Virus record (IMG/VR): IMGVR_UViG_3300027965_000018
Span: 1 to 23,982 of that record
Direction: 5' to 3' (one strand)
Source: a virus
Length of the DNA stretch: 23,982 bases
Shown piece after piece: positions 3,001-23,524 of the stretch (positions are counted from its first letter, which is position 1; every line of letters starts with the position of its first letter). Below the pieces are notes generated by a model. That model ran no database searches. It worked only from the letters and a program-made list of their open reading frames with translations, and was not told where the DNA came from. The position numbers were made by a program, and so were the translations under genes.

Positions 3001-3857
3001 GGCTCTCCATAAGCCGCTTCTCGAAATTCATTTACGCCGTGCCCAGCAGCGGCCCCGGCCAGTGCCGTATTCACTCCGGCCAGCGTCGCAAGGCGCTTGA
3101 CTTCCGCATAGTCGCCACGGTTCCAAGCGTCGCGGATCCCGGGAATGGCGTCATAGGCACCCTTGGCCATCTGCATTGCAAAGAGAGTGCTCAATCCGGC
3201 CCTGACAGCAGCCGGTGCTTCGCCAATACCAGCCGTTGCGGCAGTGATGCCGATGTTTTCCGGTGTCGTCAGTCCGCCAATGGCCTGGAGCGCTCCGGTG
3301 GCGATTGGGTGTTCATGCTGCTGAGATTCCGTCATCAACTCTGCGGGATCGAAAAGGCGCAGGCCGCCAGCTTGCTCGCGCTGTAGCTCGGCGTCCGTTA
3401 CTCCAGCTCTGCGCTTTAGCTCCTCTGCAAAGGATCCGGGATATGCCCCTGCGGCAATGGCACGCGGCAGCGCTCCGGTAATATCTGGAACCTGCGCGGG
3501 CGCGGCACCGAATGGCATGGGGATTTCGGTATTTGGCCTTGGTCCAATAGTTCCGGCACGCTGCTTCTCTTCCTCGGTCGCTATGGGGGGGGCAAGCTCA
3601 AGCTCGTTCGTAAATGGATTCCTTGGAATTTTTGTCGTATCAACGAATAAATTCTTTGGGGGAGCCAGCGGAATCATAGGCTCGCCAAGACGCGCGGAAC
3701 GTTCCGCAAGTGTTCCAAATGGCGAACGGGTGTCTGGGGGCGCCGATTTCTCCTCCGAATAGCTCTTGACGAATTGATCTAACTCATCATCGCCAGAACT
3801 TTTGGGCACACCCTTGGCGCGATAGTTCGCCACAAATTGGTCCAGATCATCGGACAC
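1..3857 (-). CDS. Giant internal-virion / large polyvalent-type phage protein (3' end outside window)
   Basis: One uninterrupted reading frame runs from a GTG at 3857 to the left edge, 1285 codons without a stop, so the C-terminus is missing. The GTG overlaps the stop of the upstream 459-aa gene by 11 nt, suggesting translational coupling; no good Shine-Dalgarno is visible. The N-terminal third is low-complexity and rich in Pro, Ala, Glu and Arg. The later part is more helical (for example FLQMRRAERAYDYLEG and NPLKLVRAIYDFSNKATWM). The last visible stretch, with a DYRLP element followed by NPNLTMFGAYHYGALRSYG, resembles the C-terminal style of large polyvalent (LPD38-like) proteins seen in uncultured podophages. 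That is recognition by eye. A nine-residue motif [DE][LI]D[QK]FVxxY occurs at residues 4-12, 25-33 and 637-645. Position after the tail genes and large size suggest an ejected inner-core protein. No lysozyme or transglycosylase motif was recognised. Confidence 0.72.
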   Translation of the reverse strand, partial: MSDDLDQFVANYRAKGVPKSSGDDELDQFVKSYSEEKSAPPDTRSPFGTLAERSARLGEPMIPLAPPKNLFVDTTKIPRNPFTNELELAPPIATEEEKQRAGTIGPRPNTEIPMPFGAAPAQVPDITGALPRAIAAGAYPGSFAEELKRRAGVTDAELQREQAGGLRLFDPAELMTESQQHEHPIATGALQAIGGLTTPENIGITAATAGIGEAPAAVRAGLSTLFAMQMAKGAYDAIPGIRDAWNRGDYAEVKRLATLAGVNTALAGAAAGHGVNEFREAAYGEPAPLTLPPGTVSAPLKVDEALGRGARRMQEFEANNAAREGMANLANAESAIERARQERINAPVAMPRTFNPDEYPRLLPGPIQGPETNPLEREATQVLEQRKPTGPQVVDRRRVGAGENLAPESPATLRKQVDMLAEGTNKVVYFPKGTENLPAPPDNAVVTNVPGDKPGSGIYYHDPSIKSEDIYSAVDNGTYGKLLGNVQTKQEAEKGNPGVLVSRDANGTEQKASVVDLRRKAIVRLQEKELNRQFPNGQVSVETPEKVISERQKEPAQPLPAKFRTDKAANIAAAQPTKEQMIDAFRTDKGRLETERRSASPEEQSLIDDRLATINQHLEELTGQKPLQKFVDRPGTDIDKFVEQYGKPSSSEQAEKAAVSPGDYVEASNGALAGKTLEVTKAGKSGIYVREGDGPIKFVKNGEYRRLEAAKEVKDLIGAGKRYSGADPRILKNLIPEPLREKLAEENRYVALSRNVQGGMYDLESQAAADMLRAREILKNAPGSPKDLETIYHSLEDSSIKLTPEQAKIREQYVKPLMDASREAYEKITGNKVAEGDEHVHRIAAERGGILDRILGGKGKLNAGNPLSKSAPGAKRRTMMALEDENGNRRVVSIKDNHVTAWEQGRPADMGRFRTPAQKGVDEYYDEKVMSGLEKLASDLGISHERTAKKLGGEEKIPGTFVDKSGKRWNVKQATTKEIEANTNIRYYKNALASAVLDFLQMRRAERAYDYLEGFKNSPEFGEIAHKIGSGNAPEGWRPTMLPQFHGYLFEPHTAEVLDWFAKRMNGGDAGVIDRAMQGINHFLRTAAFFNPLIHTPNIGVHWAVEKGVTGFGPKNWGTILRTGSRAIDAVIHQNQDFLDALDSGAPLQSQRLDNDVVNKLIIQRMGKELESNPGYAAKIAGALGYANPLKLVRAIYDFSNKATWMTNDIALLQATYEHMERTGQPFKEAVADVAKHIPDYRLPTRIFDSKALGTLMSNPNLTMFGAYHYGALRSYGEMIKEMAA

Positions 3858-8636: not shown

Positions 8637-9353
8637 CTAATTATGTGCCTGAACTGTTTTTACGCTGTGGCTCGACGCACGCATCTCTTGCACGCGCTTC
8701 GCCGTCCAATGCGGCATTCTTGCCGCTTTTTGGCAGAATTCCATATAGCGCGAATTCGCAACGGTGAATCGCGGATCGTCCTCGCCATACAGAAATTCAT
8801 AGACGCGGCGCTCAAGCATGTACACCAATCCCCAGTGCAGGTAACTCGGCACCATAGGGATGGTGTCCTCGTCCGGCTCCGAGATTTGTGGCACGGCCCA
8901 ATAAGTGTAAAGAACGGTTTGAGCGACGCTGGCAGGAGCTTGAAAGACAACGGTGGTTGGAGAAATCTGGGGGTCGATGAAAAATGCTGCGGGAACATCC
9001 TGAACCGTGTTCTTGATCGCCACCAGTTGCCCCACTGGGTCGAGAATGGGAACGATCTCAAGCTGCTTGGTAATCCCATCGGCATTTAGAAGGATTATTT
9101 CGTCAAACTGCGCGAAATCACTGATCCCGCCGCCCGGCTGTATCGTTCCAGAAGCCGCCGACATGGAAAGGTCATACATATTTGCGCCGATGACTGTTTG
9201 AAACGTTCCGCGCTTCTTTCTCCACCAGAAATGCTGCTCGCTAACGAATTCATCCAAACCAAGGAAGAATTCCATGCGCAAGTTGATTTTCTGGTCCGCG
9301 CGGCGCTCCGTCCTCTTCGAGACCTCTTCAACGATTTGCTGAACTGTCCACAT
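8637..9353 (-). CDS. Head-tail adaptor / tail tubular A-like protein, 238 aa
   Basis: The ATG at 9353 follows GGAGG three bases upstream and overlaps the end of the glycosyltransferase gene by 26 nt. The N-terminal helices (TVQQIVEEVSKRTERRADQK and MEFFLGLDEFVSEQHFWWRK) are followed by a beta-rich middle and a helical C-terminus (WGLVYMLERRVYEFLYGEDD, then FCQKAARMPHWTAKRVQEMR). Phage adaptor proteins that bridge portal and tail often have this helix-beta-helix order, including an aromatic patch like HFWWRK early on. Immediate downstream coupling to the large nozzle-like protein supports the role. The specific family is uncertain. Confidence 0.75.
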   Translation of the reverse strand: MWTVQQIVEEVSKRTERRADQKINLRMEFFLGLDEFVSEQHFWWRKKRGTFQTVIGANMYDLSMSAASGTIQPGGGISDFAQFDEIILLNADGITKQLEIVPILDPVGQLVAIKNTVQDVPAAFFIDPQISPTTVVFQAPASVAQTVLYTYWAVPQISEPDEDTIPMVPSYLHWGLVYMLERRVYEFLYGEDDPRFTVANSRYMEFCQKAARMPHWTAKRVQEMRASSHSVKTVQAHN

Positions 9354-10272
9354 GGGCCTCCGGGTTCAACTGCACCGCATTTGCCGGCATGGTTTCGGGG
9401 AGTGCCCCGCAGTCCTTGCCGCTCTCCACCCAGTCTCGGTAGTCGATGATCGAATAAGCATATTTTCCTATATGCCCGGGCAAGACTTGCGGATCGGCAA
9501 AAATTCTGAATCCAAGCATTTTCGCCTTCCAGCAAAAACTTATGTCCTCTCCGAGTTCGGTTGCCTGAGAGTCTGCGATGTTATCTAGGAATTGAAACCA
9601 CTGGCCATCGGCTTCTTTCCAATCGCCCCCTTCTGACGTAGCGGCCTCGAAGCGGGCGCGGCGGCGTTCAGCCTTCTTGTTCCAGTAGGCATCGATTTCC
9701 TGGCAGTTGGGAAATTTTCTCTTGTCAACCAGCCGCTCAAAATGACAGTTGAGATACGCTGCGGCCATCTCCTCCAACACGCTTCGCTTGACAAGCAGAT
9801 ACGCCGCTCCAACGGCATCAATCTCGATCAGCTTGTTGGTGTCCCAATCCCATTCCACGGGCGTGATGAAGTGCTCTTTCTCGGCATCCCACATGCGGAT
9901 ATTGGGCCGTGGCGGATCGCGGCGCACTGTAGCGATTCCGGTCACAATGTCCTTGCGATAACTAAGCAGCCGGTTGAGGTGCCACGGCTGGCATAGCATG
10001 TCGTCATCCATAAGGAAAAGAAATTCCGCCGGAGGCCTTCCATCATCAACCTGGCCATAGAGCGCCATCGTGATGGCTTGATTTCTGGCCCAATGAACAA
10101 CCGTTCCGCTGGTTACAGGAAGCAGCCGCACGCTGTGGCGGCCCTTGGGGCATTTCCATGCCTCATGCGTCCCGCAAAAACATTGCGTATCGCGGATCAT
10201 CAGCGAGAGATTGCTGTTGGTTTCGTGTTCGATTCCGCGCTGTGTTGGTATTACGATATCTACGACGGCCAT
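9328..10272 (-). CDS. GT-A fold glycosyltransferase (GT2-like), 314 aa
   Basis: The protein begins with a strand typical of GT-A enzymes (MAVVDIVIPTQRG). It then has a nucleotide-sugar site with the metal-binding DxD motif embedded in FLFLMDDDMLCQPWHLNRLL (DDD at 89-91), and later GEDISFCWKAKMLGFRIFAD (about 241-260) with the acidic residue used as catalytic base in GT2-type enzymes. A histidine in PGHIGKYAY (residue 267) could complete the metal site. Three cysteines early on (C31, C33, C41) are unusual. The ATG at 10272 overlaps the previous gene by 13 nt. Its place between small capsid-region genes and the adaptor is odd for a metabolic enzyme. Donor and acceptor are unknown; virion or host-surface glycosylation is the likely purpose. 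Confidence 0.85.
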   Translation of the reverse strand: MAVVDIVIPTQRGIEHETNSNLSLMIRDTQCFCGTHEAWKCPKGRHSVRLLPVTSGTVVHWARNQAITMALYGQVDDGRPPAEFLFLMDDDMLCQPWHLNRLLSYRKDIVTGIATVRRDPPRPNIRMWDAEKEHFITPVEWDWDTNKLIEIDAVGAAYLLVKRSVLEEMAAAYLNCHFERLVDKRKFPNCQEIDAYWNKKAERRRARFEAATSEGGDWKEADGQWFQFLDNIADSQATELGEDISFCWKAKMLGFRIFADPQVLPGHIGKYAYSIIDYRDWVESGKDCGALPETMPANAVQLNPEAHVDSSANR

Positions 10273-11350: not shown

Positions 11351-12565
11351 TCAGTTGTAACCGTTGACATTGTACAGACGGGCGTGGCGCTGCTCGAAGC
11401 GAATTACCCATGCGCCCTCGCACAGGTATTCATCCGAGTATTTGTCGCTGCCGTCCTTGATTACATCGGTCAGCAAATGCGTGTCGCGGTTCTCACCGTT
11501 GCCGACAAGTGGAGCGAATTCTAATGAATCCACGTCAATTGCATAGGCTTCATGTCCAGGACCGTTACCGCTCACCGGACCGTTGTCAAGCAACAGGTCT
11601 CGTGAGATGAGGAACTCTCCGTGTGAAGTCACATACCTGCGCACTTTCACTCCGTAAATTTCCTCGGATTGTTCGGTGCGCTGATGGCCGAGGGCAAAGT
11701 AGTCGAATGCGGAGATTACTCTCTTGGATGCAACCAGGAGCTTCTCGTTTCCCTGGAAGTAGGTGGAGAAGGCCATTTCCGCGAAGCTTTCCAGTCCGCC
11801 TTCGGTCAGCGTTGTGTTCGCGTTGTAAACGTTGGTCACGATTCGGGATTTGATTCCCATCGTCGTGCGAACCGTTCCGGGAGCGCCAAGAGCCAATGAC
11901 TCCGAAGGCCTGGAAAACAGAGCTGCTTGCTCCATTTGGCGGCGAATTTCCTCCAGCCCCTTCTGGCGCTGAAAAATTCGCTCATTCGACGGTCCGAATT
12001 GCGCTTGGGCGACCATTGATTTGGTGAGCTGAACAGGACGCCGGAAAATCTGTGTATAACTGATTTTCACTGACTTACTCGTTGAGCGCACCGTTCCAAA
12101 AGAATCGCCTTCGGCATATGCCGATGCAAGAATGCGGATATCGGAAGATGCCCCGATAGTGTCCGCTCCAGCGCCGCCAATGCCGCGAGTCAGGGTTACT
12201 GTATTGCCAGCGACGGCGGTTACGCGGGCAATTTCTTCCGCCGCCGAGCTGGCAGGAGCCTTGGGAATGGCAACCAGGTCGCCATAAGCAAACAGGGTTC
12301 CATCGACAACCGTGATGGACGTGGCAACCGAGCTGTAGTCGGTCGTGTTGTTTGCCTGGCCCCAGTACCCCACGTAGTCGTCTTCGATCCATTCCACGCG
12401 GGTTGATGCCGTTGTTTTTTTCCGATTACCGATCTTTGTCACTAAGGTCAGAATCGGAGTGAGATTCGGGTTGAAGAGAATATCTCTTTCCCCGAAAAAT
12501 ACTCGCTGTTGTACTGTTTCTTGAATTGCCTGGTCTACTGACCTTGGCACGGTGTTAATGGCCAT
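11351..12565 (-). CDS. Major capsid protein, SU10-like / DUF5309-type, 404 aa
   Basis: The ATG at 12565 is preceded by GGAG six bases upstream. The N-terminus contains FGERDILFNPNLTPILTLV and GNRKKTTASTRVEWIEDDYV. This is the typical start of SU10-type (DUF5309) HK97-fold capsid proteins, where a thermolabile interdomain segment and a WxED-like element follow the early Pro-rich loop. A beta-rich insert with a carbohydrate-like loop (GDLVAIPKAP, NTVTLTRGIGG) comes next, then a helical spine (NERIFQRQKGLEEIRRQMEQ) and a C-terminal domain ending in WVIRFEQRHARLYNVNGYN. It sits directly after the scaffold candidate and before the post-capsid hairpin, the classical place. Length fits the family. 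Confidence in the capsid role is high, in the exact family moderate. Confidence 0.87.
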   Translation of the reverse strand: MAINTVPRSVDQAIQETVQQRVFFGERDILFNPNLTPILTLVTKIGNRKKTTASTRVEWIEDDYVGYWGQANNTTDYSSVATSITVVDGTLFAYGDLVAIPKAPASSAAEEIARVTAVAGNTVTLTRGIGGAGADTIGASSDIRILASAYAEGDSFGTVRSTSKSVKISYTQIFRRPVQLTKSMVAQAQFGPSNERIFQRQKGLEEIRRQMEQAALFSRPSESLALGAPGTVRTTMGIKSRIVTNVYNANTTLTEGGLESFAEMAFSTYFQGNEKLLVASKRVISAFDYFALGHQRTEQSEEIYGVKVRRYVTSHGEFLISRDLLLDNGPVSGNGPGHEAYAIDVDSLEFAPLVGNGENRDTHLLTDVIKDGSDKYSDEYLCEGAWVIRFEQRHARLYNVNGYN

Positions 12566-12598: not shown

Positions 12599-13840
12599 TT
12601 AACGCCTTCTCATGAGCTGCTGTTTTACGGCTTCCGAGAAGTTACTCTTGGTTCCGGGCCCTCTCGTGATTTGGCCGATTATTTTTTCAGCCTCATTGAC
12701 CGGTCCGCTAAATCCGCCTTTTGGTTTTCCGGGAGCCACGCGCGAAGCCGCGACTTTCTTGGCGGTCTCCGCTGCCTGTTTTCTTCCAGTTTCCACTGCT
12801 TTCCGCACGACATCTGGATTTACTTGTTCGCCTTTGGCGATCTTGTAGGCAACCTCGATCTGCGCGGCATAATCAAGAACAGGGTCGTTGCCCTTCCCAG
12901 ATTTAACTGCGCTGATCCAAGGATTCGCCGCCATGACCTTTTTAAGGCGACCGCTCTCAACCATCTGCTCGAGGTCTGGATAGCGCATTTCTCCGGTGGC
13001 ATCCTTCAGGCTTTCCAGGTGCTCGAAAGCATTTGCTCGGATTGCCTCGGTGCGCGTCCTTCCCCAGACTGGATCACTGGCCAGATTGTTGTTGACCATG
13101 CCGAGAACCATCGGTGCGGCATCATCCAAGGCCAGCATGAACATCTCGTGAAACGCCGAAGTCAAATCATTTGCCTGCTCCTGGGAAATATTTCCCTTAA
13201 AGTCGGGCCACAATGCCTTGACGATTCTGTTGGACACGTGCATCGCTACTGCGGGATTCACGCGCCTCTTGGCGATTTCACCAATCTGGTTGAGATAGGC
13301 TTGAAACTGTTCTGGCGTCGGCGCATGCGCTTGGACCGGCTTTTCCTCGTCGGAAGCCTTGGCCTCGTCGGCCTTTTGCTCCATTGCCTTGCGCTCTTCT
13401 GCCTGGCGTTTCAGCGCCTCGCCGCGATCCATGATCTCTTTGAGCATGGCTCGGTGTGCGGGGTCTTGCGGGTCTAACTGGACTTTGTGCGTTTTGGAGT
13501 AATGCTGTGCGGCGCGTGCGTAAGCAGCATCGGAATAGTCGCGGTCAGTCTCCTGAAGAGCAAACTCGCCCTCTTCTTCCTCTGCTGCCTCTGTTGGCTC
13601 TGCTTCTTCCGCCTGTTCTTCCGGCTCGCTTGCGGGCACTTCCTCGTCGGATGCTTCCGCTATTTCTTCCGCCGGATCCGCACTGCTTTCCTCTTCGGCT
13701 ACTGGAACTTCTGCTTCCCGATTTGGCTCCTCTGCTTCTGTGGCCTCGGGTGCTTCTGTCTCAGCGCTTTGTCCGAGGACGGCTCTGACTATCGCCTCCT
13801 CGTTTGATCTATCCACTTCGCTCGTCGCTTGTAGATTCAT
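12599..13840 (-). CDS. Scaffolding protein candidate, 413 aa
   Basis: The ATG at 13840 follows AGGAG at six bases. Residues about 25-93 are dominated by Glu and Ala (for example AEEPNREAEVPVAEEESS and EEQAEEAEPTEAAEEEEG), a highly acidic disordered section. Residues about 127-163 form charged helices with coiled-coil character (MLKEIMDRGEALKRQAEERK). The C-terminus is basic (AVKQQLMRRR), as in scaffolds that bind the capsid through a basic helix. The gene is immediately upstream of the major capsid gene with 33 nt between. No protease motif was seen, so it does not look like a protease-scaffold fusion. Confidence 0.82.
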   Translation of the reverse strand: MNLQATSEVDRSNEEAIVRAVLGQSAETEAPEATEAEEPNREAEVPVAEEESSADPAEEIAEASDEEVPASEPEEQAEEAEPTEAAEEEEGEFALQETDRDYSDAAYARAAQHYSKTHKVQLDPQDPAHRAMLKEIMDRGEALKRQAEERKAMEQKADEAKASDEEKPVQAHAPTPEQFQAYLNQIGEIAKRRVNPAVAMHVSNRIVKALWPDFKGNISQEQANDLTSAFHEMFMLALDDAAPMVLGMVNNNLASDPVWGRTRTEAIRANAFEHLESLKDATGEMRYPDLEQMVESGRLKKVMAANPWISAVKSGKGNDPVLDYAAQIEVAYKIAKGEQVNPDVVRKAVETGRKQAAETAKKVAASRVAPGKPKGGFSGPVNEAEKIIGQITRGPGTKSNFSEAVKQQLMRRR

Positions 13841-13887: not shown

Positions 13888-13962
13888 TGGTGGCGGGATC
13901 AGGATTTGAACCTGAATTTGAAGGTCATGGGCCTTCCGAGTTTCCAGTTACTCCATCCCGCG
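13888..13962 (-). tRNA. tRNA with CAU anticodon, initiator-like (tRNA-Met)
   Basis: Reading the minus strand, a 75-nt cloverleaf is complete. Acceptor 1-7 is CGCGGGA against TCCCGCC. The D-stem is GAGT/ACTC with loop AACTGGAA. The anticodon stem is GAAGG/CCTTC around loop CCCATGA (CAT at 13927-13929). The T-arm is TCAGG-TTCAAAT-CCTGA. A73 and an encoded CCA follow. Initiator-type marks are the C1xC72 mismatch and the A11-U24 pair. Against a full initiator, the anticodon stem has only two of the three consecutive G-C pairs (29-31 is AGG), and position 33 is C rather than the near-universal U. It could instead be elongator Met or Ile2; the identity is unproven. Confidence 0.88.
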
Positions 13963-14043: not shown

Positions 14044-14538
14044 TTAATTGGGATTGCCGACGCAGATGTACTGCACTGTATCCGTTGCGCCAACGGTATC
14101 TGTAATCACAACGGTGGTGGGCGTGGGAGCCGCCTTGACCAATTGTGGCGTTGTTACATCCGTCACAACGCACACTGGCGTATTTTGGAAAGGCTTGTTG
14201 AACGTCACGGTGGCGGTGTTTGACGATAGCGCCACTGTTCCCCACGAGAAGGGTCCGGCTGGCGAAGTCGTGGTATTCGCCGTGGCCCCCTTTCCGCCGA
14301 GATTCCCGCTGATTCCGACGACGTTGCTGCCGTTCTTTGCAAGCGCAACATCGCTCGAAGAGTTGTCGCCGAACCAGAGATTGAATACCGAGGGAACGTA
14401 TACATCGCCGCGGAAAGCTCCCCTGCCATTTCCAAATGGCGTCCCTTGCGCGAATAAGCTCACTGCCAGAAGGACAAGCATGGCCAGAACACCGAAGCCA
14501 GCAAATCCATTTCGTGCCGCTGAAAGAAACTTCTTCAT
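14044..14538 (-). CDS. Exported small protein with Sec signal and paired cysteines, 164 aa
   Basis: The ATG at 14538 has an excellent GGAGG eight bases upstream. Residues 1-11 are basic (MKKFLSAARNG), 12-30 are hydrophobic (AGFGVLAMLVLLAVSLFA), and a signal-peptidase-like A/Q boundary falls at 30/31. The mature part begins Gly-rich. The last 65 residues form a beta-rich domain with TATVTFNKPFQNTPVCVVTD and end in YICVGNPN; its two cysteines (C123, C159) could form a disulfide. That pattern (strand, PF, TPVC, closing YICVGN) is one I associate with C-terminal domains of phage fibre-like and exported proteins, but I cannot name the family. A signal peptide on a late phage protein suggests export to the host envelope. 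It could be a virion surface, receptor-masking or host-surface protein. Confidence 0.75.
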   Translation of the reverse strand: MKKFLSAARNGFAGFGVLAMLVLLAVSLFAQGTPFGNGRGAFRGDVYVPSVFNLWFGDNSSSDVALAKNGSNVVGISGNLGGKGATANTTTSPAGPFSWGTVALSSNTATVTFNKPFQNTPVCVVTDVTTPQLVKAAPTPTTVVITDTVGATDTVQYICVGNPN

Positions 14539-14561
14539 GTGACTATCCTCCTAAACTGTTT

Positions 14562-15062
14562 TTACTGCTGGACGTAAGTAAGTACGCCTTGAATGTTTAC
14601 CGTAGTCCCCGCGCTTACCAGGCAGACCCCCGCGCCAACCGCCGAGCTAAAGGTTGATCCGGGATCGGCAAATGAGATGAACAGCGGCGGCGCTGCCGTT
14701 GTTAGATCGCCATTGCCGAATGTGCCTGTATTCGTAACCGTGTTGGTGCCGCAAGTCGGTCCGGTTCCGCTGATAAATTGTGCCGTATCCGCTGAAGTGG
14801 ACGACGGAGCAATTGTCAGTGAAGCTCCGCACACGAATACGGCCTCTCCCGCTGCCGGGGCAACAAGCTGTGTCGTTGTCGCCGTAGTGGCGTTTATGGG
14901 CACGCTGGATTTCGCGGTGAATTGCGAAAAGCATGGATCGGTGATAGAGGCTGGCTGATTTTGCGCGACTGTGTTTTCGGCCATGCCGCACAGGGCAATG
15001 ATCAGGATTGCCAGGAGCGGAACCGCGAACGCCAAAGCAATCGCCTTTTTTCTGTTTGTCAT
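14562..15062 (-). CDS. Exported small protein, signal/TM N-terminus, four mature cysteines, 166 aa
   Basis: The ATG at 15062 overlaps the methyltransferase stop by ATGA, so translation is coupled to the accessory cassette. Residues 1-6 are basic, and 7-26 form a strong hydrophobic segment (IALAFAVPLLAILIIALCGM) ending near an A-Q boundary (TVAQ). The mature domain is Thr/Ser/Ala-rich beta, with cysteines at 44, 78, 104 and 147 that could make two disulfides. The layout (TTTQLVAPAAGEAVFVCGA, then GTGPTCGTNTV, then GVCLVSAGTTVNIQG, ending TYVQQ) matches a common but uncharacterised family of secreted proteins found in phage contigs, as I recall it. It is adjacent to the 164-aa exported protein, and the two may act together. 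Function unknown. Confidence 0.75.
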   Translation of the reverse strand: MTNRKKAIALAFAVPLLAILIIALCGMAENTVAQNQPASITDPCFSQFTAKSSVPINATTATTTQLVAPAAGEAVFVCGASLTIAPSSTSADTAQFISGTGPTCGTNTVTNTGTFGNGDLTTAAPPLFISFADPGSTFSSAVGAGVCLVSAGTTVNIQGVLTYVQQ

Positions 15063-15667
15063 GTACTTACCTCACGGACTCCATAAGCTAGGCCTATCCT
15101 GTAGCTCCCCATTGGGAATATCAGTTGTTCTTTCAGCTTCATGCCGCCCAATTCAAACCATTCTTCAAGGTCATGCTCGCTGAAGCTCCACTGATGCTCT
15201 CCCGCAGAGAGCTCGGAATCCAATGGTTCATCGATAGGATGGGAAATCACGGCGGCATTGGCTATGCCAAGCCAATGCCGGACTTCTGCTTTAGGGTCGG
15301 CCAAATGCTCCAGAACCTCACACATCACAACGAGATCGGCTGGGGCAATGCGAATCGATCCGATTTCCTCGTTGTACAAAAACATTTTGGGGAATCGTTC
15401 TCGCGCTATGGCAACGGATTTTTCGTTGCATTCGATTCCTGTAACGATCCACCCTTTTTCAGAAAATGGCCCCGTAATGTCGGCGGTTCCGCAGCCGAGT
15501 TCTACAATGCGCGATCCCGGACTTAGGTGCCCAAGCGCCTTCGCAACAAATTCGCGGGATCGTTCGATGCGCGGCCTCTGAACCGGACAATCGGAATATA
15601 TGCGCGGGCCGACGTCGCGGTGATATCTGGCGCCTTCCGCCGCGCTGCGAATCTTCATCTCGCGCAT
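15059..15667 (-). CDS. SAM-dependent methyltransferase (class I, Methyltransf_23-like), 202 aa
   Basis: Motif I VELGCGTAD (residues 55-63) is the glycine-rich SAM loop. The acidic residue closing the second strand is in VTGIEC (E79), and the post-II region MCEVLEHLADP (115-125) is typical of the UbiE/methyltransferase-11/23 group that acts on small molecules or sugars. The C-terminus HQWSFSEHDLEEWFELGG resembles the substrate-domain cap of that group. The ATG at 15667 overlaps the previous gene by 13 nt, and the stop overlaps the next start by 4 nt. Context with glycosyltransferase and radical SAM genes suggests methylation of a sugar or glycan. No DNA-methyltransferase motif (DPPY/NPPY) is present. 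Confidence 0.88.
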   Translation of the reverse strand: MREMKIRSAAEGARYHRDVGPRIYSDCPVQRPRIERSREFVAKALGHLSPGSRIVELGCGTADITGPFSEKGWIVTGIECNEKSVAIARERFPKMFLYNEEIGSIRIAPADLVVMCEVLEHLADPKAEVRHWLGIANAAVISHPIDEPLDSELSAGEHQWSFSEHDLEEWFELGGMKLKEQLIFPMGSYRIGLAYGVREVST

Positions 15668-16065
15668 CGCGGCTCCTGCATGTCGAACGTAAGCTTGGCG
15701 GCGGGAAGATCGTCTCCCTTGCCATAATGGGCTATCACGGCTGGTTTTCCGTCAAAAACCAGGCCTGCCCAGTTTTTGGCATCGACTCGTTTTCCGTTCA
15801 AAACGCGGATTGCCTTGGCGCGGCGCCCAATCTCTTCAAGGCTTAAGTCTTGCCCGGCGCGTATCTGCCATTCCAGTTCGGCAATCGCCGAGTTTGCGAG
15901 TCCTAGCCGCGCTCCGGCAAGGAACAACTCCGCAGGGATGTTCCCGAATCGGTTGCGAAGCTCTTGTTCAATTTGCCGCAGGATTTCCTCGTCGCCGTGG
16001 CCATAGAGAACCTTTCGCGCCTCTATGGTGTACCTATCAAGCACTTCTCCGATATTCATTTCCAT
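15655..16065 (-). CDS. Hypothetical cassette protein, DUF6165-like by pattern, 136 aa
   Basis: The ATG at 16065 follows the radical SAM stop codon immediately (TAG-ATG). A second Met (MNIGEVLD) two codons later is an alternative start. The start MNIGEVLDRYTIEARKV and the later pieces AIAELEWQIR and AIRVLNGKRVDAKN resemble a family I recall as DUF6165, a small helical protein found in polysaccharide and glycosyltransferase clusters. The similarity is loose and uncomputed. The body is helical and charged. Its fixed place between radical SAM enzyme and methyltransferase implies involvement in the same process. Catalytic residues are not evident. Confidence 0.7.
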   Translation of the reverse strand: MEMNIGEVLDRYTIEARKVLYGHGDEEILRQIEQELRNRFGNIPAELFLAGARLGLANSAIAELEWQIRAGQDLSLEEIGRRAKAIRVLNGKRVDAKNWAGLVFDGKPAVIAHYGKGDDLPAAKLTFDMQEPRCAR

Positions 16066-17112
16066 CTACAACATCTCCGGCAGGGCTTCGTTTCCGACAA
16101 CATATTTCCTTACGGCGCGGTTGTAGTCGCACATCAGGCAGATGCGGCAAAGTCTTGGAACTATGGCCGCCGCCTTTTTTCGGTGTTCTTGCGATTGCCA
16201 AATATCGCGGAATCTCTTTTCATGCACGCTGCCGAATACAATGGTGCGCTGGTCACAGCATGCGGAAACATCCCCGTTCGCCCCAATCACGGCAAGGGTG
16301 TAGGCCGCGTAGCACTTATCAAACTCGCGCTGCGTGAAAACATCGTTTCCGCGCTTTCCGAGAATGCGTACGTCCAGTCTCGGGAACTTCTTTGCAACAT
16401 GCGCTATCAGCGCGGAGGCGGCATTCCAGTCGCCGTGCATGAACTGCCTTGTCTGCTCCGAAACGGGGCGGAAATGCACAAAATCCACTCCGCATTCCTG
16501 GGCCATTTCCAAGAACGGCAGAATGCTGTAGTAGGTCCTGTTACAGTCGGCAACGATGTAGGCAATTCCGATTTCAGGGCTCCGCTTATCGCCGCGAGCT
16601 TTCACAAGCGAACGGATATTCCCGACAACGCGCCTGAATTCTCCCGATTTGCTTCCGTGCATCTGCCGGTGCTCCGCATCGCATGAAGAATCTAGCGATA
16701 CGCGAATGTGATCCGCGCAATCCACCAGATAATCGGTCCAGCGGTCGATGAAACCGCCATGAGTAATCACGTTTGTTCTAAAGCCGTGGCGATGGGCTGT
16801 TTCGAGAAGCGGTCCGAAATCCCTGTGCAGCGTGGGTTCTCCGCCGCCGGAAAAATTTATAAGCCTGCAATCCATCTCGCGCAGATCGGATAGCACGCCT
16901 TCCGCAATGTCTTTGGGCAAGGTGTGCCGGTTTCCGGCGATTGTAGCTTTTCGGAAATCCAAAGGTTCGCACCACGGGCAGGCATGCGAGCATAAATTCG
17001 TCAAGTCAAGGTTCGCGCGTATCGGTCCCGGCGCATCCCCTTCCGGCTGAAGGCTCGCTTGTATCCGGTCATACCATCGCAGCACTCGCAGTTCTGAATA
17101 GCGTTCCATCAT
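16066..17112 (-). CDS. Radical SAM enzyme with SPASM-like C-terminus, 348 aa
   Basis: The canonical radical SAM cluster motif CxxxCxxC is present as CSHACPWC (C41, C45, C48), followed by the SAM-binding GGGEPT (89-94) and later strand ITHGG. The C-terminus carries extra cysteines: C267, then G280-x4-C285, and CRICLMC (C322, C325, C328). This resembles a SPASM/twitch auxiliary cluster domain, though the spacing CxxCxxC is not the textbook CX2CX5CX3C. Members of this group modify peptides, sugars or cofactors (for example sactipeptide maturases, anSME, and sugar-processing enzymes). No precursor peptide gene is obvious next door. The ATG at 17112 overlaps the glycosyltransferase by 4 nt. The substrate is unknown; a glycan or protein in the same cassette is plausible. 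Confidence 0.88.
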   Translation of the reverse strand: MMERYSELRVLRWYDRIQASLQPEGDAPGPIRANLDLTNLCSHACPWCEPLDFRKATIAGNRHTLPKDIAEGVLSDLREMDCRLINFSGGGEPTLHRDFGPLLETAHRHGFRTNVITHGGFIDRWTDYLVDCADHIRVSLDSSCDAEHRQMHGSKSGEFRRVVGNIRSLVKARGDKRSPEIGIAYIVADCNRTYYSILPFLEMAQECGVDFVHFRPVSEQTRQFMHGDWNAASALIAHVAKKFPRLDVRILGKRGNDVFTQREFDKCYAAYTLAVIGANGDVSACCDQRTIVFGSVHEKRFRDIWQSQEHRKKAAAIVPRLCRICLMCDYNRAVRKYVVGNEALPEML

Positions 17113-18107
17113 TGAACAGCCACGGGTATGGCAAGTTTCTCCATAATCACTTTCAGCCGGTTCTCCAGGCTATGATTCGCGTGCGCTTCCCGGCATCCAC
17201 TAGCGGCAATCATTTCTCTTTCCGCCGATTTTTCTTCGCTGGACCATTCCCGCAAAAGCTGCGCGACATACGGCAAATTGCTTGACCGGTAGTACACAAG
17301 GTGGTGCCCGCTGGTGAACGCAGCTTGGTTTTTAGCCACGCCCCTGTCCGCGCTCAGCATCGGCGTGAGCAAGAACGTTCCGCAGGCCATCACTTCGTAA
17401 ACCTTGGAAACCAGGCATTGCGACAGCGCCGGCAAATTGAAAAACACGCTAGTTCTCCGGTAGCAATCGGCCAGGCGCTTGGCGGATTCGAGCGCCTGGA
17501 ATCCCATTACATCAATCATCACTCCGCCTATGCGTATCGGCGGTATGGCATGCCTGCTGAGCGCCCGCAGGAATCGTGCGCGTTTCTCATAGATTCCGCC
17601 AATGAATGCTACGGGCCATTCTTTCTTCTCAAACCCGTCCGGCTTGAATACTTCCGTGTCCACGCCAAACGGGAGCCAGTGCGAATGCCCCTTGGCGAAA
17701 CTTTCTTGGTCGCAAAACTCCGCATCCTGTACTGCGGGGAAAAAGTATTCGTCGGCCCAGGGCTGTATCTGGTCGAACTGAATGCTGTAATCCTCTCGGA
17801 AAAGCGATTCGTGCAGCCATGCCGCTTTCCTTGCTTGCAGTTGTTTCCACTCGTATTTTCCGTATATCTCATCGAGCCACGGAATCAAGTGTTCCGGCCC
17901 GCTGATGAGAATGGCGTCCATAGACCGCAGATGTTCAAGGGCTGGCATCGTGACGCGAGCCGCTTCTATATCGGCGGCGCTCCCGGCGCCAGGGCGAATT
18001 GCCCCATCCGTCACAGCATGCCCCATCCTGCGCAATGTCGCCGGCAAACCGCCGCCCATGCTCCATGCCGCGCTTCTGTCTTTTGGATAAAAAACAGCGA
18101 TCCTCAT
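17109..18107 (-). CDS. GT-B fold glycosyltransferase (GT4 / CgeB-like), 332 aa
   Basis: The sequence begins MRIAVFYPKDRS with a Gly-rich N-terminal Rossmann start. A second Rossmann domain begins near WPVAFIGGIYEKRARFLRAL (164-183), and the donor-binding signature KVYEVMACGTFLLTP (235-249) is the hallmark of Glyco_trans_1_2/GT4 enzymes, including CgeB-like proteins. The terminal stretch (EREMIAASGCREAHANHSLENR) completes the C-terminal helix that packs back on the fold. The ATG at 18107 overlaps the 80-aa gene by ATGA, and its own stop overlaps the radical SAM start. Acceptor unknown; a phage or host surface glycan is the likely target. Confidence 0.87.
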   Translation of the reverse strand: MRIAVFYPKDRSAAWSMGGGLPATLRRMGHAVTDGAIRPGAGSAADIEAARVTMPALEHLRSMDAILISGPEHLIPWLDEIYGKYEWKQLQARKAAWLHESLFREDYSIQFDQIQPWADEYFFPAVQDAEFCDQESFAKGHSHWLPFGVDTEVFKPDGFEKKEWPVAFIGGIYEKRARFLRALSRHAIPPIRIGGVMIDVMGFQALESAKRLADCYRRTSVFFNLPALSQCLVSKVYEVMACGTFLLTPMLSADRGVAKNQAAFTSGHHLVYYRSSNLPYVAQLLREWSSEEKSAEREMIAASGCREAHANHSLENRLKVIMEKLAIPVAVQ

Positions 18108-18346
18108 AGTCCCGCTGCCGACCGGATTATGGCTTCCATGCTGGCAACGGCTGATGCCTTGGCCGCGTACTGGATCATTAGATTCGTGTTTGGCGATTGC
18201 TGAAGCGATTCGTTTTGAAGATGCGTTTGCCAGAAGGCGGCTTCTTCCAGAAGCAATTTGCGAAACGATGCCATCAATGCGCTGTTATCCAGCATCAGCA
18301 GCAATTGCCTGCGATCTTCAGATTCCAGGTTTGTTTTTCTCGGCAT
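18104..18346 (-). CDS. Small helical protein, 80 aa, between portal and glycosyltransferase
   Basis: The ATG at 18346 is preceded by a GGAATGAAAA stretch and lies 29 nt inside the end of the portal gene; the stop is fused to the next start (ATGA). The sequence is helical (DRRQLLLMLDNSALMASFRK, KLLLEEAAFWQTHLQNESLQ) without recognisable motifs. It may be a portal-associated or head-completion protein. Its coupling to the downstream glycosyltransferase only shows operon membership. Confidence 0.65.
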   Translation of the reverse strand: MPRKTNLESEDRRQLLLMLDNSALMASFRKLLLEEAAFWQTHLQNESLQQSPNTNLMIQYAAKASAVASMEAIIRSAAGL

Positions 18347-20483
18347 TTTTCATTCCGGGCGGCACAATGGTTTTAGGTTCATGCGCCGGTTCGGCCAAGG
18401 TCGCAGCGGCATCAGCGGCGGCTCCCACATGCTGGACAGCCTGGCTTCCATGCCGGACAAGCGATAACATGGCTTGCCCCTCGGAGGGCAAGCCCACACT
18501 CTGCAAAATGGCTGCTTGCACATCGGGAGACAAATCCTCGAACTTTGCCGTAACATTGAATCCGATCTTTACCGGGGGCGCTGGCGGAGACGGAGGAAGA
18601 ATCGCCGCCTCCGGGTCCACCCCTATCGCCTTCGCCAGTGGCGCGGCAAATACGCGCTTGTTCAGCACGTCGGGATTCTGCGCGGCCAGCATGAATCCCT
18701 GCTGCAATTTCTGTACTTTATACTGATCATCATCGGCGAGCGTCGAGCCTTCCTCTGGAAGAATCTCGAACTCCTGCTGAATGTCCATCGGATCGATGCG
18801 TATTACTTTGGGGTTTCCGCCCTGCGTTCGTTCGCTGATGGCTTCGATAATCTGATCGATTCGCGGCGAGTCGCCCTTTTGAATCTCTAGCGCATCCTCC
18901 ATCGCCTGCTGGTTGAAGGCCAGCCAAATCTCCATTACCGAACGGATAAACTGGCCTATCTCATTGAGTTCGTCGGCGAGAACGTCATCGCCGGATTGCT
19001 TCTGAAGAATCAGGCTTGTTGCCAGCTTGCCCGGCTGCGGCATGGCTTCGGTTCCGGGAGCGAAATCGGCAACCGAAGGATCAGCTTGTTGCATTTCCCG
19101 CGTCCATTGGGCCTGATCCTGAAACGCTTCCGCTGGAAAGACAGGGTCTTGCAGGAAGTCAATTTCCCCCAGGTTCTTCAGATAGAGAAGCCTCCCGAAT
19201 CCTGTTCTGACCAAATCATCGTCGGTTAGGTTTGTGCCCTCAAGCACCTTGATCAATGGCAGCAACTTGTTATTGATGAAGTCCGTTGTCTGATTCGCGC
19301 GGGAGTTCCGAAGCTGCATAAGGAAACGCGTGATTCTCGGCGTGGAATCACCAATGCCCTCGAAAAGATCGGGGATCAGCACCATATCGGTGTAAATGTA
19401 TTTTCCGTATGTGTCCCACGGATACCATTGCCTTCCGAGGTACAGAGACTCTTCGCCGACATACTCAATGCACAAGCGCCCGTCCACGATGGTGTGCCGC
19501 TCATCCACCATGAAGCGCTTGCGCGGCGGGCGAATAGGCTTGCCCGCACTCAAAGGATCGGCAACGGAAACCGCTTCGCGCATCATGCGCCGCAGGCTGA
19601 TCGACTTTTGATCCAAATAATTGCGGTCTCCGCACATATCCAGGAGCTCTTGCGCCTTTGCCGGATCAATTACCGGAGACTTCTGTCCAGTCTCGGGATC
19701 GATGCTCTCTTGCCGCGTCCAGTATTCCAGCCATTCTTCGTCACGAATGCTATTCTCGATGATGTACGCGGACTGATTGCCGGAGTAAAAGCCCGGTTCG
19801 GCAAAAATGTCGCCGGCAAATACGTAAGACAACACCGGTCCGCTGTAGCGCGTGACAGGCACTCCGAGCGTTATCTGGTCACCGTACTCGCTGGTTGCCT
19901 GAGTGATTTCCGCCTGCGTCAGATTGGGCCCTAGCTGCCTTATGGCATCGGCGATCTCATCGTCCGGAGCGCCCTGATGCGCCATCAGCTCTTCCCGCGT
20001 GAGCGTCTGCGTCAGCCTGCGGAAACGCCGAATGACCTGCACGCGGTCGTAATAGTTCTTTCCCCAGCCAATACCCAAAGCCTTGCAGCACCGCACAATG
20101 CGGCGGAATTGCGCTTGCGACTCGCTCCTGTCCCACTGATACATGAGCTGGGCGGCGGCTTTGTCCGCCGCTATCGGGTCCTTGCCGCGCAAGCGCAGAT
20201 TGGGCGAATTGCGCGTTAGCCGCGCCGTTCCGCGCCGCACCATAACATGGTGATCAGGAAGGCAGATGTTCGACCGGCTCTTATCCTCGACTTCTTCGCC
20301 TTTTTCGTTTTTCCGCATGATCGGCTCGACACGAGCCTTCATGTTCCGGTAGATTTCTGTCCATTCCTGATAATAGTTATTCATCATGTAGCGCTCGCTC
20401 GCGCGGCGCTGTTCGAGTATCTCCGAGCTATGGTCGTCGACCTTGATGTCGGAACCGGCGACTGTGGATATGGTGTCAGCCAT
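18318..20483 (-). CDS. Portal protein, 721 aa
   Basis: The chosen start is ATG at 20483, 4 nt after the upstream stop codon; a longer frame from 20537 would add 18 basic residues overlapping the upstream gene. The N-terminal region NICLPDHHVMVRRGTARLTR and the long acidic helical wing are typical of podovirus/siphovirus portal proteins. So are the central VLSYVFAGDIFAEPGFYSGN, the FEGIGDSTPRITRFLMQLRN clip/stem region, and the C-terminal Pro-rich linker LPPSPPAPPVK. Length is in the range of P22-type portals (about 720). It lies after terminase and before scaffold and capsid, as expected. Twelve subunits would form the DNA-entry vertex. Confidence 0.87.
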   Translation of the reverse strand: MADTISTVAGSDIKVDDHSSEILEQRRASERYMMNNYYQEWTEIYRNMKARVEPIMRKNEKGEEVEDKSRSNICLPDHHVMVRRGTARLTRNSPNLRLRGKDPIAADKAAAQLMYQWDRSESQAQFRRIVRCCKALGIGWGKNYYDRVQVIRRFRRLTQTLTREELMAHQGAPDDEIADAIRQLGPNLTQAEITQATSEYGDQITLGVPVTRYSGPVLSYVFAGDIFAEPGFYSGNQSAYIIENSIRDEEWLEYWTRQESIDPETGQKSPVIDPAKAQELLDMCGDRNYLDQKSISLRRMMREAVSVADPLSAGKPIRPPRKRFMVDERHTIVDGRLCIEYVGEESLYLGRQWYPWDTYGKYIYTDMVLIPDLFEGIGDSTPRITRFLMQLRNSRANQTTDFINNKLLPLIKVLEGTNLTDDDLVRTGFGRLLYLKNLGEIDFLQDPVFPAEAFQDQAQWTREMQQADPSVADFAPGTEAMPQPGKLATSLILQKQSGDDVLADELNEIGQFIRSVMEIWLAFNQQAMEDALEIQKGDSPRIDQIIEAISERTQGGNPKVIRIDPMDIQQEFEILPEEGSTLADDDQYKVQKLQQGFMLAAQNPDVLNKRVFAAPLAKAIGVDPEAAILPPSPPAPPVKIGFNVTAKFEDLSPDVQAAILQSVGLPSEGQAMLSLVRHGSQAVQHVGAAADAAATLAEPAHEPKTIVPPGMKNAEKNKPGI

Positions 20484-20487
20484 GCTC

Positions 20488-20760
20488 TTAGTATTCGTCG
20501 CTCTTTTCCGGGTACTTCTCGCCCTCGTTGTCGTCACCGTTCGGCGACACGCACATCGAGTTCGTTAAATCGTTGATGTGCTTGTGGAGCGCCGCCCGCG
20601 TCATATGCGCATGCTCCTCCGGCGGCACATACGTGGGAGCCAAGAGCCCCTTCATGCCCTTTCCGGTGGCTGGCGGCTTGTCGTGGTGATGCACGACCAC
20701 CTTGTACGCATACCCTTTGTTGCTTTTCATCTTGGACACTTCAAAACTCTTGACTCTCAT
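20488..20760 (-). CDS. Small hydrophilic protein, 90 aa, upstream of portal
   Basis: The ATG at 20760 overlaps the upstream stop by ATGA. The sequence is basic at the front (MRVKSFEVSKMKSNKGYAYK) and acidic at the end (NGDDNEGEKYPEKSDEY), with His-rich segments (VVVHHHDKP, EEHAHMTRAALHKHIND). No family recognised. A role in packaging or head assembly is suggested by location alone. Confidence 0.7.
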   Translation of the reverse strand: MRVKSFEVSKMKSNKGYAYKVVVHHHDKPPATGKGMKGLLAPTYVPPEEHAHMTRAALHKHINDLTNSMCVSPNGDDNEGEKYPEKSDEY

Positions 20761-23449: not shown

Positions 23450-23524
23450 TGGCAGGGGAGGAGGGATTTGAACCCCCATAGCCGGTTTTGGAGGCCGGAG
23501 TCCTAGCCGTTGGACGACTCCCCT
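23450..23524 (-). tRNA. tRNA-Trp (CCA anticodon)
   Basis: A complete cloverleaf is present on the minus strand. The acceptor is AGGGGAG/CTCCCCT, the D-stem GTCC/GGAC, and the anticodon loop CTCCAAA (CCA at 23489-23491). The T-arm GGGGG-TTCAAAT-CCCTC is followed by discriminator G73 and an encoded CCA. It resembles E. coli tRNA-Trp in acceptor and anticodon arm. The closing anticodon-stem pair is C31/A39 rather than U-A. It is the first gene after the leftward promoter and precedes terS by 42 nt. Confidence 0.93.

Follow-up and report, generated by a model that had tools for sequence, protein, structure and literature searches.

A four-gene cassette encoding a glycosyltransferase (GT), a radical S-adenosylmethionine (SAM) protein (rSAM), a 136-aa protein and a methyltransferase (MT) was identified among the late structural genes of the metagenomic virus record IMGVR_UViG_3300027965_000018, whose entire 23,982 bases constitute the window analysed here. 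It is probably a glycan-decorating cassette, with rSAM remodelling a sugar in place of the nicotinamide adenine dinucleotide (NAD)-dependent epimerase that related phages carry in an otherwise similar cassette. The late genes of the window are encoded on the minus strand, and recomputation of the open reading frames (ORFs) returned on that strand all four genes, with the positions and junctions given in an initial annotation made from the sequence: the GT gene (332 aa, 17109-18107), the rSAM gene (348 aa, 16066-17112), the 136-aa gene (15655-16065) and the MT gene (202 aa, 15059-15667). The GT and rSAM genes share a 4-nt ATGA overlap, the TAG of the rSAM gene is followed directly by the ATG of the 136-aa gene, and the 136-aa and MT genes overlap by 13 nt. 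The GC content of the cassette, overall and at third codon positions (GC3), shows no clear difference from that of the flanking genes, so nothing suggests that it was inserted recently from a foreign source.

Three of the four proteins score above the curated cut-offs of Pfam hidden Markov models (HMMs). The GT, which is the constant member of the cassette, matches PF13524 (Glyco_trans_1_2; 53.1 bits versus a cut-off of 25, E = 4.5e-14), and a search of its profile against solved structures gave no credible match. The MT matches PF13489 (Methyltransf_23; 49.6 versus 27 bits, 4.9e-13), a class I SAM-dependent methyltransferase family, and contains an ELGCGT-like SAM site whose E, C-G and D-I positions are conserved in an alignment of homologues. 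The rSAM protein exceeds the cut-offs of both PF04055 (49 versus 29.5 bits, 1e-12) and PF13186 (SPASM; 41.7 versus 21.5 bits, 1.4e-10), and its cluster motif CX3CX2C, formed by C41, C45 and C48, is invariant in five aligned sequences. The HMM bears out the description of its C-terminal domain as SPASM-like, but the cysteines fall short of it: a full SPASM domain carries the seven-cysteine motif CX9-15GX4C ... CX2CX5CX3C ... C, whereas the auxiliary cysteines of rSAM (C267, C285, C322, C325 and C328) form CX12GX4C and then CX2CX2C only, which is closer to a Twitch domain or a variant of SPASM.

Among solved structures, the rSAM profile was matched best by DesII (2.4e-13), followed by SkfB (2.2e-11) and BlsE, and the auxiliary domain was matched by BtrN. 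DesII is a thymidine diphosphate (TDP)-sugar enzyme, BlsE a sugar-acid decarboxylase and BtrN an aminocyclitol dehydrogenase, while SkfB acts on a peptide. DesII and BlsE, for the radical SAM core, and BtrN, for the auxiliary domain, are thus the best or near-best sequence matches of known structure; they are remote (E about 1e-13 to 1e-6, with partial coverage), and none is at equivalog level. Relatives of rSAM were found at E<=1e-5 in just 8 of 50,697 phage records, all at less than 60% identity, so that an enzyme of this kind is rare in known phages, as the initial annotation held for phage late operons; a scan of genome contigs found no cellular relative. Homologues of the MT (35-48% identity) occur in six phage contigs; in the same type of search this family was almost exclusively phage-borne, with weak Bacillota matches only and no close cellular relatives.

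The 136-aa protein has homologues with 39-48% identity in three related phages (L021, L022 and L024), among which E7, D10-R11, I14-E15, R17-K18 and YGHG21-24 are invariant. Its AlphaFold model is all-helical, with four helices (predicted local distance difference test (pLDDT) score, 80.6). The best viral fold match of the model, a Pithovirus protein named as a glycosyltransferase (E = 3.2e-3, probability 1.00, query TM-score 0.56), provides a hint only; a fold search against the PDB returned nothing significant, and no Pfam family scored above threshold. The label DUF6165-like, under which the protein had been annotated and to which a motif resemblance was noticed by eye, is not supported by the HMM: with PF19662, neither the window, nor the records of six relatives, nor the three homologues gave a match at E<=10, and in 299 Bacillota genomes it gave a single sub-threshold match, to an open frame resembling an ABC transporter.

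Labels such as L002, L003 and L015 denote loci of related phage records that were compared with the window. Starting from rSAM or GT alone, the search yielded only two contigs, and the remaining relatives were reached through the MT and the major capsid protein (MCP). L002 is nearly the same phage as the window. Four divergent relatives (L003, L021, L022 and L024) retain the GT-rSAM pair in the same slot, with both proteins about 51-63% identical. The gene order in L003, whose MCP is 75% identical to that of the window, is portal, 80-aa gene, GT, rSAM, MT, exported protein, second exported protein (exp2), scaffold and MCP, and every cassette junction is a 4-nt overlap. The L003 GT and rSAM are about 60-63% identical to those of the window and the MT 48%; the 136-aa gene was found nowhere in the 62.5-kb L003 record. 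L021, L022 and L024, which were reached through the MCP, carry the GT, rSAM and the 136-aa homologue, and the MT is present in L022 and L024 but not in the L021 slot. The occurrence of GT, rSAM and MT in the same order in L003 at 48-63% amino acid identity indicates that the cassette is a real unit and not a chance assembly. In the GT and rSAM genes, nonsynonymous divergence (pN) is 0.25-0.34 while synonymous sites are at or near saturation; both genes have therefore been kept by purifying selection. In the distant relatives L027, L031 and L034, the slot is without the cassette, and the portal, one or two small ORFs, the scaffold and the MCP follow one another.

The most notable new finding is an apparent exchange of enzymes within the cassette. 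The GT was found in 12 of 21 related records; five of these 12 carry this rSAM, seven carry an NAD-dependent epimerase/dehydratase (PF01370), and none carries both. All seven epimerase genes are found near the GT gene, and the epimerase is absent from the nine records without the GT. In L012, L014, L015, L047 and L048, the GT and the epimerase are usually accompanied by the same MT family, as in L015 (portal-GT-MT2-epimerase-MT-scaffold-MCP), and L034 and L036 have a GT-epimerase pair. One of the GT-less records (L016, IMGVR_UViG_3300005531_000016) is a fragment of a phage near-identical to that of the window and starts inside the MT. If the 20 records other than L016 were independent, the chance of this coincidence would be about 8e-6, a value not to be read as a p-value because the records share ancestry and some of them were retrieved by way of the MT. 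A tree of the MCPs groups the rSAM phages in a single clade (98/98), the sister of which is the epimerase-bearing L015 (100/99); resolution in the GT tree is poor, and it provides no test of the exchange. A single replacement of the epimerase by rSAM, presumably in that direction, would explain the pattern. A further difference was noted between the otherwise near-identical phages L047 (7193-8005) and L048 (7193-7960): after the second MT, one has a 3′-phosphoadenosine 5′-phosphosulfate (PAPS)-reductase-like gene and the other a gene that by eye resembles a DNA methylase.

In the mechanism that we consider probable, the cassette would be expressed with the late genes, and rSAM would use radical chemistry to dehydrogenate, deoxygenate or epimerise a sugar, in all likelihood a nucleotide sugar; the PF13524 GT would transfer the product, the MT would cap or O-methylate it, and the 136-aa helical protein might assist the GT or rSAM. 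In the GT-X-MT cassette, rSAM would thereby have replaced the NAD-dependent sugar epimerase, which other phages have kept at X. We infer late expression from the position in the operon, along with the sugar substrate, the order of the reactions and the replacement of function. That the genes form a coherent glycan- or small-molecule-modifying set, as the initial annotation held, is supported by the HMM assignments of the GT, rSAM and MT, the conserved order and the insertion between portal and scaffold; its further proposal is modification of a virion or host-surface glycan or protein, and sequence does not permit the choice between virion and host. A virion target is slightly favoured over a host-surface glycan because such cassettes, although found at differing sites, are mostly located among structural genes.

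Several points weigh against this reading. The rSAM substrate and the virion glycan are both predictions from the sequence, and the likeness to DesII is suggestive only because the peptide-modifying SkfB also scores well. The exchange may have been a single event, so that it amounts to one or a few phylogenetic data points, with some of the records obtained through the MT. The MT and the 136-aa gene are not essential to the cassette, since the former is missing from the L021 slot and the latter from L003. Finally, the L024 rSAM gene, otherwise intact, is interrupted inside the cluster motif by six inserted bases that include an in-frame TAA (about 3180-3190), and may be a pseudogene or reflect an assembly error. 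Loss of the cluster site in homologues and separation of the genes in relatives had both been named beforehand as outcomes that would count against the cassette: the site is conserved with this L024 exception, and wherever the pair occurs, in five phages, the GT and rSAM genes are linked.

The alternative with the strongest claim, still a tentative one, is that the host surface is the target, the cassette bringing about a late change of the host O-antigen or capsule that blocks superinfection or the re-adsorption of progeny to debris. In marine pelagimyophages, GT and radical SAM cassettes of a hypervariable region have been interpreted as serving O-chain modification (PMC7029224), and in the window's phage, signal-bearing exported proteins are encoded directly after the cassette. 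A tyrosine integrase was also found at 32178-32684 in the record of L016, the contig near-identical to the window, and the window's phage may therefore be temperate. These exported proteins, however, are not conserved with the cassette, no GtrABC-type flippase, polymerase or membrane GT is seen in it, and its location among late head genes differs from that of lysogenic-conversion genes, whose expression comes from the prophage. Maturation of a peptide resembling a ribosomally synthesized and post-translationally modified peptide (RiPP), in which rSAM would modify a short peptide or secreted protein with tailoring by the GT and MT, is improbable: SPASM-type radical SAM enzymes often modify peptides, and SkfB is among the best structural matches, but no conserved small precursor ORF lies near rSAM, and the ORFs that follow differ among the window, L021, L022 and L024. 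In addition, the conservation of rSAM does not extend to the exported proteins exp1 and exp2, the all-helical 136-aa protein is unlike the winged-helix RiPP recognition element, and rSAM reaches at best 81.1 bits against a cut-off of 380 with the NCBIfam radical SAM maturase equivalogs (W_rSAM_matur, PqqE and others).

Hypermodification of DNA bases, which would protect the phage DNA from restriction, is very unlikely. Phages do use GTs and other enzymes on DNA bases, but the cassette includes no base-hydroxylating or hydroxymethylating enzyme, a gene set placed with the late head genes would act late for DNA protection, and the epimerases and uridine diphosphate (UDP)-sugar dehydrogenase of the relatives point to sugar chemistry. 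An antiviral or nucleotide-analogue enzyme similar to viperin, directed against competing phages, was suggested by scores of 50-51 bits with the PADLOC pVip models; that match is limited to the shared radical SAM core, the NCBIfam prokaryotic viperin model gives 43.9 bits against a cut-off of 180, and rSAM has a SPASM-like domain and is paired with the GT in all five phages. On these scores and domains the proposal, which has next to no probability, was rejected.

A deoxyhypusine-synthase-like gene (PF01916, E to 3e-41) was identified at the end of the cassette slot in L021 (6343-7428), L022 (6239-7309) and L024 (5728-6813), and no such homologue was found in the 50,697 phage records. These genes are notable in their own right, since SpeY homologues were reported to be absent from the genomes of viruses and phages in a survey of viral polyamine enzymes published in 2023 (PMC9992855). 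A bolder form of the glycan reading, which we regard as doubtful, is that a conserved GT-epimerase-MT cassette has had its epimerase replaced by rSAM, so that a sugar made by radical chemistry coats the virion, and that in these three relatives the deoxyhypusine-synthase-like enzyme could add a polyamine-derived group. The product in that case would be a virion glycan bearing a polyamine or amino group, of a kind not described before. If the main reading is right, the natural exchange of epimerase for rSAM would offer a way to test which class of substrate an uncharacterised radical SAM/SPASM family acts on, and the case for phage-made glycans on phage particles or infected-cell surfaces would be strengthened.

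Cassettes of GT and radical SAM genes near structural genes are already known from phages, and the window's cassette is a variant of such sugar cassettes; to call it an undescribed system, as had been done, is too strong. In the open-licence literature, no description was found of a GT-rSAM-MT cassette in the portal-scaffold slot or of an rSAM/epimerase exchange. GT and radical SAM genes are both enriched in marine viral contigs (PMC7150976). The pelagimyophages likewise have exchangeable GT and radical SAM genes near structural genes; they are unrelated phages, the genes lie in a hypervariable region with the tail fibres, and an rSAM/epimerase exchange is not described in the available text (PMC7029224). 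In mycobacteriophages of the Che8/Rita type, phage-encoded GTs are reported to glycosylate the virion, with glycans on the major capsid protein (cited through PMC11256854), whereas for the window's cassette a virion glycan is a prediction; the Maravista GTs lie near the 3′ end of the genome, unlike the tight head-gene operon of the window, and radical SAM is not mentioned there (PMC11256854). A precedent for the layout is MW202801 (an unrelated, uncultured podovirus from Manatee Spring), in which a run of MCP-rSAM-GT-PhyH-MT-NodB-GT similarly packs a radical SAM protein with a SPASM domain, a GT and an MT among head genes; its radical SAM protein is only 25% identical, the slot follows the MCP, and no relatives of the window's structural genes were found in the stretch. 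Phage WO (MN180251) joins a GT4, a radical SAM domain and a SPASM domain in a single polypeptide beside an NAD epimerase, but it differs in being a fusion with another GT family, outside the head genes and with the epimerase and radical SAM together. A radical SAM-GT2 fusion also occurs in L017. Both fusions speak for the sugar reading, as does a second cargo slot observed in the late operon of relatives, between homologues of the window genes at 9328-10272 and 8637-9353 (seen in part in L033); it holds GT2-MT-B12-binding radical SAM-UDP-sugar dehydrogenase in L031 (7122-11330), the start of a GT-rSAM set in L033 (12020-13019), GT-epimerase in L034 (12319-14084) and MT-GT2 in L027 (12775-13959).

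The genes flanking the cassette, all on the minus strand, place it between a portal-like and a scaffold-like gene. The MCP (11351-12565) is firmly assigned to the SU10 family (SU10_MCP, PF17236, 5.8e-37). The assignment of the 739-aa portal-like protein (18318-20537) is supported by the order TerL-portal-scaffold-MCP and by two of its eight homologues, which match Pfam SU10_portal (best 9.9e-8), and the scaffold-like protein (413 aa, 12599-13840), which borders the slot downstream, was assigned only from its position and composition; the scaffold-like gene is kept in L003, L015, L021, L022 and L024. The last core gene before the slot encodes 80 aa (18104-18346); it has a homologue with 36% identity in L003, and ORFs of similar size occupy the same place in relatives without the cassette. 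Because this gene overlaps both the GT gene, by 4 nt, and the portal-like gene, by 29 nt, the coupling reaches up to the portal. At 5210-7461 in L003, the portal-like gene consists of two overlapping ORFs (551 and 199 aa), either a true split or a sequencing error.

Downstream of the MT, the continuation through ATGA junctions into two exported proteins applies to exp1 (166 aa, 14562-15062), which has a hydrophobic signal-like N-terminal segment and a 4-nt ATGA overlap with the MT gene, but not to exp2 (164 aa, 14044-14538), which starts 23 nt after exp1 with its own Shine-Dalgarno sequence AGGAGG. An N-terminal signal or transmembrane helix and beta strands are predicted for exp2 in a low-confidence AlphaFold model (pLDDT 59.6). 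Neither is part of a conserved system: a good homologue of exp1, a lineage-specific accessory, was found only in contigs near-identical to the window, and exp2 occurs, among the loci compared, only in the window's phage and in L003 (62% identity). Both were consequently dropped as cassette substrates. Small proteins with signal-like N-termini, not conserved in most relatives, are thus encoded in or beside the cassettes of both the window (14044-15062) and L014 (6692-7132). ARAGORN predicted a tRNA-Met(CAT) gene (13888-13962, minus strand) inside the late operon; it lies after exp2 and before the scaffold-like gene, at the 3′ edge of the slot, and a tRNA-Trp gene is located at 23450-23524.

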